This document shows, piece after piece, positions 22,370 through 45,126 of a DNA stretch of 45,126 nucleotides (positions within the stretch are counted from its first letter, which is position 1; the number at the start of each line of letters is the position of its first letter). The notes beneath the pieces were generated by a model. It made no database searches, had not been told where the DNA came from, and saw only the letters and a program-made list of their open reading frames with translations. The stretch is from Microcaldota archaeon (GTDB lineage: Archaea; Micrarchaeota; Micrarchaeia; Micrarchaeales; CABMGC01), in NCBI GenBank assembly GCA_021848065.1, contig JAJZNA010000025.1, positions 1 to 45,126 on the forward strand, in the 5' to 3' direction. Made by a program: the position numbers and the translations under genes.

Positions 22370-22495
22370 CGCCCAGGATGGGATTTGAACCCATAATCCC
22401 CGAAGGGACCGGTTTGCTTGTGTGCATCATCTTGTATCAGCTCTTGAATAAATCAAATTCAAGACCGGCGCAATACCGGATTTTGCTACCTGGGC
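22370..22495 (-). tRNA. tRNA-Ser (anticodon UGA) with a 43-nt intron at position 37/38
   Basis: Acceptor GCCCAGG/CCTGGGC, anticodon stem CCGGT/ACCGG, T arm ATGGG-TTCAAAT-CCCAT; intron about 22415-22457 with bulges AA|T and CA|A around a 4-bp CTTG/CAAG helix. Confidence 0.9.
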
Positions 22496-44127: not shown

Positions 44128-44302
44128 GACAGAATTTCATGCATGTAGTCATACTTAAATCTTTTGAGGCAGTTACTGCAATATTTATCAGATTGCCTGA
44201 ATCAGGCAGGAAAAGAAAACGTGAAAGATGTAGTCTTGAGTTTTTATGCGGAAGAGGCTGCAACCAAAAGCATGATGCTTAATGCACACGTGAACATATT
44301 GT

Positions 44303-44320
44303 AAACTTCCTTAGAAGTTT
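44303..44320. repeat. Perfect hairpin directly 3' of 16S rRNA
   Basis: AAACTTC-CTTA-GAAGTTT. Confidence 0.6.
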
Positions 44321-45126
44321 GAGGTGATCTATCCACAGGTTCCCCTACGGATACCTTGTTATGCCTTAGCCCCCCTCACGGAACCTTAGTTCGAAAGCAT
44401 CACGAGGATGCTGCATCACTAAGGCCCCACTTGGATGACTTGGCAGGCGGTGTGTGCAAGGAGCGGGGACATATTCACCGCGCGTTGGTGACACGCGATT
44501 ACTAGGGATTCCAACTTCATGAGGGTGAGTTTCAACCCTCAATTCGGACCTGGACTGGCTTTGGGGGATTAGCGTCCCATTTCTGGGTAGCAACCCATTG
44601 TGCCAGCCTCTGTATGCCGCGTGTAGCCCTGGAGATTCGGGGCATACTGACGTACCGTCGCCCTCTCCTTCCTCCTACTTAAACGTAGGCGGTCTCGACA
44701 GAGTGCCTGACCCATCTCTGGACCAGTAGCAACTGTCAACGAGGATCTCGTTCGTTACCGGACTTAACCGGATAGTTCACACCACGAACTGACGATCGCC
44801 ATGCACCACCTCTCGGCTTGTCAGGTAAGATCTTTAGTCTGACCTTCACACTGCCGTCGCTCCAGGTAATGTTCCCGACGTTGAATTCAATTGAACCGTA
44901 GCATCCACCCCTTGTGTGCTCCCCCGCCAATTGCTTTAAGTTTCAATCTTGCGACCGTACTCCCCAGGCGGCAGACTTAACAGTTGTCCTACGGTACTGC
45001 ACTTATTCGTGATAAGTGCAACACCAGAGTCTGCATAATTTACTGCTAGGGCTACTCGGGTATCTAATCCGATTCGTTCTCCTAGCCTTCGTCACTCACC
45101 GTCGGATGTGTTCTGGTCAGGCGCCT
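44321..45126 (-). rRNA. rrs: 16S rRNA, 3' portion (5' part beyond window)
   Basis: Reverse complement contains GGATTAGATACCCG, AAACTTAAAGCAATTGGCGGGGGAGCAC, CCTTGCACACACCGCC, ATAACAAGGTATCCGTAGGGGAACCTGTGG, GATCACCTC. Confidence 0.98.

Follow-up and report, generated by a model that had tools for sequence, protein, structure and literature searches.

A rare Watson–Crick replacement of the U1406·U1495 mismatch in 16S rRNA helix 44 across most of a Micrarchaeota order

Results

The 16S rRNA gene and its setting

The window, by which we mean the whole 45,126-nucleotide stretch analysed here, comes from a Micrarchaeota genome and ends in the 3′ part of a 16S rRNA gene, which occupies its final 808 bases on the minus strand. 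The Rfam model RF01959 (SSU_rRNA_archaea) matches window 44319–45126 (−) at 758 bits, a match that is incomplete only at the contig end. Contig C13 from this genome carries the 5′ half of the gene; its end and that of the window's contig share 99 identical overlapping bases, indicating one 16S gene broken by assembly; no second 16S copy was found in this genome. The 3′ end of the gene, GAUCACCUC, is intact in the window sequence, as are the decoding adenines, and the gene is a single-copy, functional archaeal rRNA. The features are listed below in E. coli numbering; those of helices 44 and 45 were read from the sequence, and the extent of helix 44 also from its fold.

44319..45126, minus strand: 3′ part of the archaeal 16S rRNA gene (RF01959 model positions 670–1478; truncated by the contig end)
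44358..44448, minus strand: helix 44 with both flanks (1401–1501)
44445, minus strand: U1404 (usually C), partner A1497
44443, minus strand: C1406 (usually U), partner G1495
44441, minus strand: A1408, unchanged
44367/44366, minus strand: decoding adenines A1492/A1493, unchanged
44364, minus strand: G1495 (usually U)
44362, minus strand: A1497 (usually G)
44330..44353, minus strand: helix 45, with closing pair U1506–A1529 instead of U·G

Directly 3′ of the 16S end is a hairpin, AAACTTC-TAAG-GAAGTTT (window 44298–44320, minus strand), which is perhaps the gene's own terminator or a processing stem. No 23S gene lies downstream within the window, and the 16S looks unlinked from the 23S. Elsewhere, a 126-base tRNA match by Rfam (window 22370–22495, minus strand) is absent from the ARAGORN output, so that it is probably an intron-containing tRNA gene.

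Two replaced base pairs in helix 44

A1408, A1492 and A1493 are the parts of the ribosome that read the codon–anticodon helix. In the window's helix 44, U1404–A1497 and C1406–G1495 replace C–G and U·U, and the pairs G1405–C1496 and C1407–G1494 are standard. The four changed bases and their coordinates, as given in the original prediction, proved exact when reread on the minus strand. Modelling of helix 44 had also been proposed there; folding the isolated strand paired both altered positions and yielded four stacked pairs, U1404–A1497, G1405–C1496, C1406–G1495 and C1407–G1494. The model helix with C–G is about 6 kcal/mol more stable than that with U·U, a figure for relative use only.

Pairing and distribution within the phylum

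A pattern with all four positions free was run on 302 genomes of the phylum, of which 168 matched, and both strands of the helix were read for 140 Micrarchaeota 16S sequences. Throughout these 140, 1404/1497 is either C–G or U–A and 1406/1495 either U·U or C–G. Exactly four combined states occur (C–G with U·U, U–A with U·U, C–G with C–G, and U–A with C–G), and a half-changed intermediate at either pair was found in 0 of the 140 sequences. Both sides of each pair thus change together across relatives, as compensatory change would have it. The window's own four-base state is common to all ten sequences of its genus, and over all loci read, in any lineage, a single one of 202 distinct helices carries an unpaired C·U.

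C1406–G1495 occurs in 72 of the 86 sequences from the window's order, which comprises two families; the other 14 keep U·U. The remaining families of the phylum have U·U in 54/54 sequences and C1406–G1495 in 0/54, so that the pair marks the order and was seen nowhere else in the phylum. The changes first noted in this one rRNA are therefore real, paired and compensatory, but they are not peculiar to one organism, C1406–G1495 being order-wide.

Nearly all of these sequences come from metagenome assemblies. The position of the gene at a contig end, split over two contigs, could be taken to favour sequencing or assembly error, a pseudogene or a chimera as the source of the changed bases. Against this stand the agreement of the genus at all four bases, the recurrence of C–G at 1406/1495 over the order in many samples and from many assemblers, the joint change of both members of each pair, the 99-base overlap that marks an assembly break within one gene, and the single gene copy found. 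We give an artefact practically no weight and reject it on the clade-wide paired states. The earlier argument that a two-sided change speaks against sequencing error is thus borne out by the ten genus sequences and by the pairing in 140 of 140.

With the four positions masked in the 16S tree, parsimony places 3 changes at 1406/1495 and 10–12 at 1404/1497, exact counts being unsure because of some long branches that probably stem from introns inside 16S. A single clade of C–G members is not rejected (p-AU 0.66). The switch from C1404–G1497 to U–A is a frequent compensatory one. All four positions had been described as near-universal, which holds for 1406/1495, where change is rare, but not for 1404/1497, which is much less constrained, with at least 10–12 switches. 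By independent pairs on the tree, the swap at 1404/1497 showed no association with that at 1406/1495, in a weak test with few informative pairs; on this ground we set aside the idea that U–A compensates for the stability of C–G.

Loss of N4-acetylation was also considered as a driver. The TmcA_N domain of RNA cytidine acetyltransferase (PF08351) was found in 0 of 302 Micrarchaeota genomes by a search whose control finds it in Haloferax and Sulfolobus. Since the domain is missing phylum-wide, genomes with C1404 included, its absence does not track the helix 44 change, and this loss is not the cause.

Survey across prokaryotes

We scanned one genome per species, 85,462 species in all, for stretches standard in context but with any base other than U at 1406. 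The scan returned 95 stretches, 74 of Micrarchaeota type and 21 others; these counts are lower bounds, as the patterns miss genomes with other anchor changes, and counts from the two collections used overlap and are not additive. Where the base is C1406, the partner is G1495 in 89 of 90 cases. Five of the 95 stretches have A1406–U1495, three of them copies in one Bordetella genome. The original prediction had raised the question of whether the altered states are common in archaea; beyond the order, few archaea or bacteria show the changed 1406/1495 state. U1404–A1497 flips far more often than 1406/1495.

The non-U1406 cases outside Micrarchaeota include a Guaymas archaeon (L110), from a phylum whose four further matching members are canonical; at least nine genomes of a gut-clostridia family (that of G310; loci L258–L260, L283–L309), other members of which have U1404–A1497 or the canonical state; a Dojkabacteria genome; and a bacterium (L050) that carries both pair changes, its order mates being mostly canonical. 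A 197-genome sample of another archaeal phylum gave only a previously found case, with C·U in one of two copies. Unrelated lineages, several of them with genomes of about 1 Mb, thus show variation at the same two pairs, and a few bacteria with small genomes acquired the 1406/1495 change independently.

Some of these cases deserve separate mention. Within the gut-clostridia family, whose genomes are roughly 1 Mb, 1404/1497 and 1406/1495 both vary, always on two sides. Bordetella genomosp. 2 AU8256 has A1406–U1495 in all three 16S copies found (L044, L117, L121); U1406 stands in each of the seven further Bordetella genomes that the pattern matched. The bin of Euryarchaeota archaeon SI053_bin38 (L043) holds one 16S copy with unpaired C1406·U1495 and another that is canonical, which points either to a change halfway through or to a bin of mixed strains.

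Helix 45 and primer sites

U1506–A1529 closes helix 45 in 139 of 140 Micrarchaeota, the remaining one having C·A, and also in each of five members examined from the Guaymas archaeon's phylum; the canonical U·G closes it in nearly all bacteria read. Because this pair is phylum-wide and shared with that second phylum, it predates the helix 44 change, and we rejected the idea that the two arose together. The pair may serve as a marker that unites the two phyla.

The four helix 44 substitutions fall within the binding sites of primers 1406R, 1391R and 1492R. Primer 1492R mismatches the window at three positions, 4, 6 and 17 bases from the primer's 3′ end, the first two of which are explained by the helix 44 pair changes. 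In the order, 85 of 86 sequences show 2–4 mismatches to this primer, versus 1 mismatch in 53 of the 54 sequences from other families. Mismatches of DPANN 16S to common primers have been reported in general terms (PMC8407392), in passages on divergence that are silent on the decoding-site pairs and on how they covary.

Discussion

U1406·U1495 has been called universal in the three domains, with trypanosome mitoribosomes as the exception (PMC3101183). Contrary to that claim, the variant described here is a real, clade-wide and rare one. We claim no new mechanism, C1406–G1495 being already known from trypanosome mitoribosomes and an engineered bacterium; a limited literature search found no published description of natural C1406/G1495 outside trypanosomes, which is not proof of absence. 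In trypanosomatid (Leishmania, Trypanosoma) mitochondrial SSU rRNA, C1406–G1495 likewise stands in place of U·U, but that ribosome is organellar, with changed 1409–1491 pairs also described (PMC3101183), whereas the Micrarchaeota ribosome is cellular and archaeal, keeps A1408 and has U1404–A1497 in addition. The window's pair is of the trypanosome type as a similar state, not by common descent.

Mycobacterium smegmatis engineered to carry the identical base pair is viable; neomycin and paromomycin still act on it, and its resistance to gentamicin and tobramycin, both 4,6-disubstituted, is high (PMC3101183); U1406C/U1495G had almost no effect on its paromomycin MIC (PMC3140962). Together, viability and MIC data indicate that C1406–G1495 is compatible with life and that its drug effect is specific to one class. 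The original prediction that changes at 1406 and 1495 affect aminoglycosides was accordingly too general, standing for gentamicin and tobramycin but not for neomycin and paromomycin. By analogy, ribosomes with C–G would be insensitive to 4,6-linked aminoglycosides and not to neomycin or paromomycin. M. smegmatis is here a laboratory construct, whereas the Micrarchaeota pair is natural, order-wide and usually accompanied by U1404–A1497. An unidentified modified cytidine, N-330, has been placed at 1404 in Haloferax and is reported from archaea as well as many bacteria (PMC2584109); U1404 removes this modification site.

We consider it highly probable that helix 44 of this reduced-genome lineage carries genuine base-pair replacements, heritable and compensatory. 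Within one Micrarchaeota order the U1406·U1495 mismatch just below the decoding adenines has given way to a Watson–Crick C–G, and pair 1404–1497 has switched repeatedly between C–G and U–A; the upper helix then closes as four Watson–Crick pairs from 1404–1497 to 1407–1494. Relaxed constraint, in genomes that are small and reduced, would be a more probable driver than selection, and codon reading should be normal, as A1408, A1492 and A1493 are intact. Change at 1406/1495 does not require a small genome, since larger ones, among them a 5-Mb Bordetella, have A–U pairs there. That U·U has been conserved so long and so nearly universally suggests a function for the mismatch, and pure drift is not certain.

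Selection could have acted through the ribosome itself, a stiffer helix 44 altering A-site dynamics, fidelity or factor binding in a way that suits the lineage. The greater relative stability of the C–G model helix and the retention of C–G over most of the order are consistent with such retuning; the 14 sequences that keep U·U in the same order argue against it, as do the failure to find a partner change, TmcA_N being missing phylum-wide, and the want of support, in a weak test, for a stability trade-off between the two pairs. We regard it as unlikely. Protection from aminoglycoside producers, with C–G fixed as a defence against gentamicin- or tobramycin-like drugs, seems quite improbable: the high resistance of the engineered bacterium (PMC3101183) and the occurrence of A1406–U1495 and C1406–G1495 in unrelated bacteria speak for it, yet C–G gives no protection from neomycin or paromomycin, and no such role was found for the linked U1404–A1497. 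Inherited compensatory replacement under relaxed constraint remains our preferred reading.

U1406·U1495 is thus not universal: most of a Micrarchaeota order lacks it, as do, through separate changes, one member of another archaeal phylum and several bacterial lineages. Sisters with C–G and U·U form natural paired comparisons for the role of the mismatch in decoding, and the many switches at 1404/1497 provide a natural screen for the enzyme that makes N-330 at C1404. The 1492R mismatches 4 and 6 bases from the 3′ end can hide the order from PCR surveys. From the engineered analogue, C1406–G1495 would predict intrinsic insensitivity to gentamicin-type drugs. More tentatively, as something possible rather than probable, U1406·U1495 may be dispensable in cellular ribosomes, such that most of this archaeal order and several bacterial lineages would decode with a fully Watson–Crick upper helix 44, and A-site dynamics, fidelity or drug response might be altered as a result.
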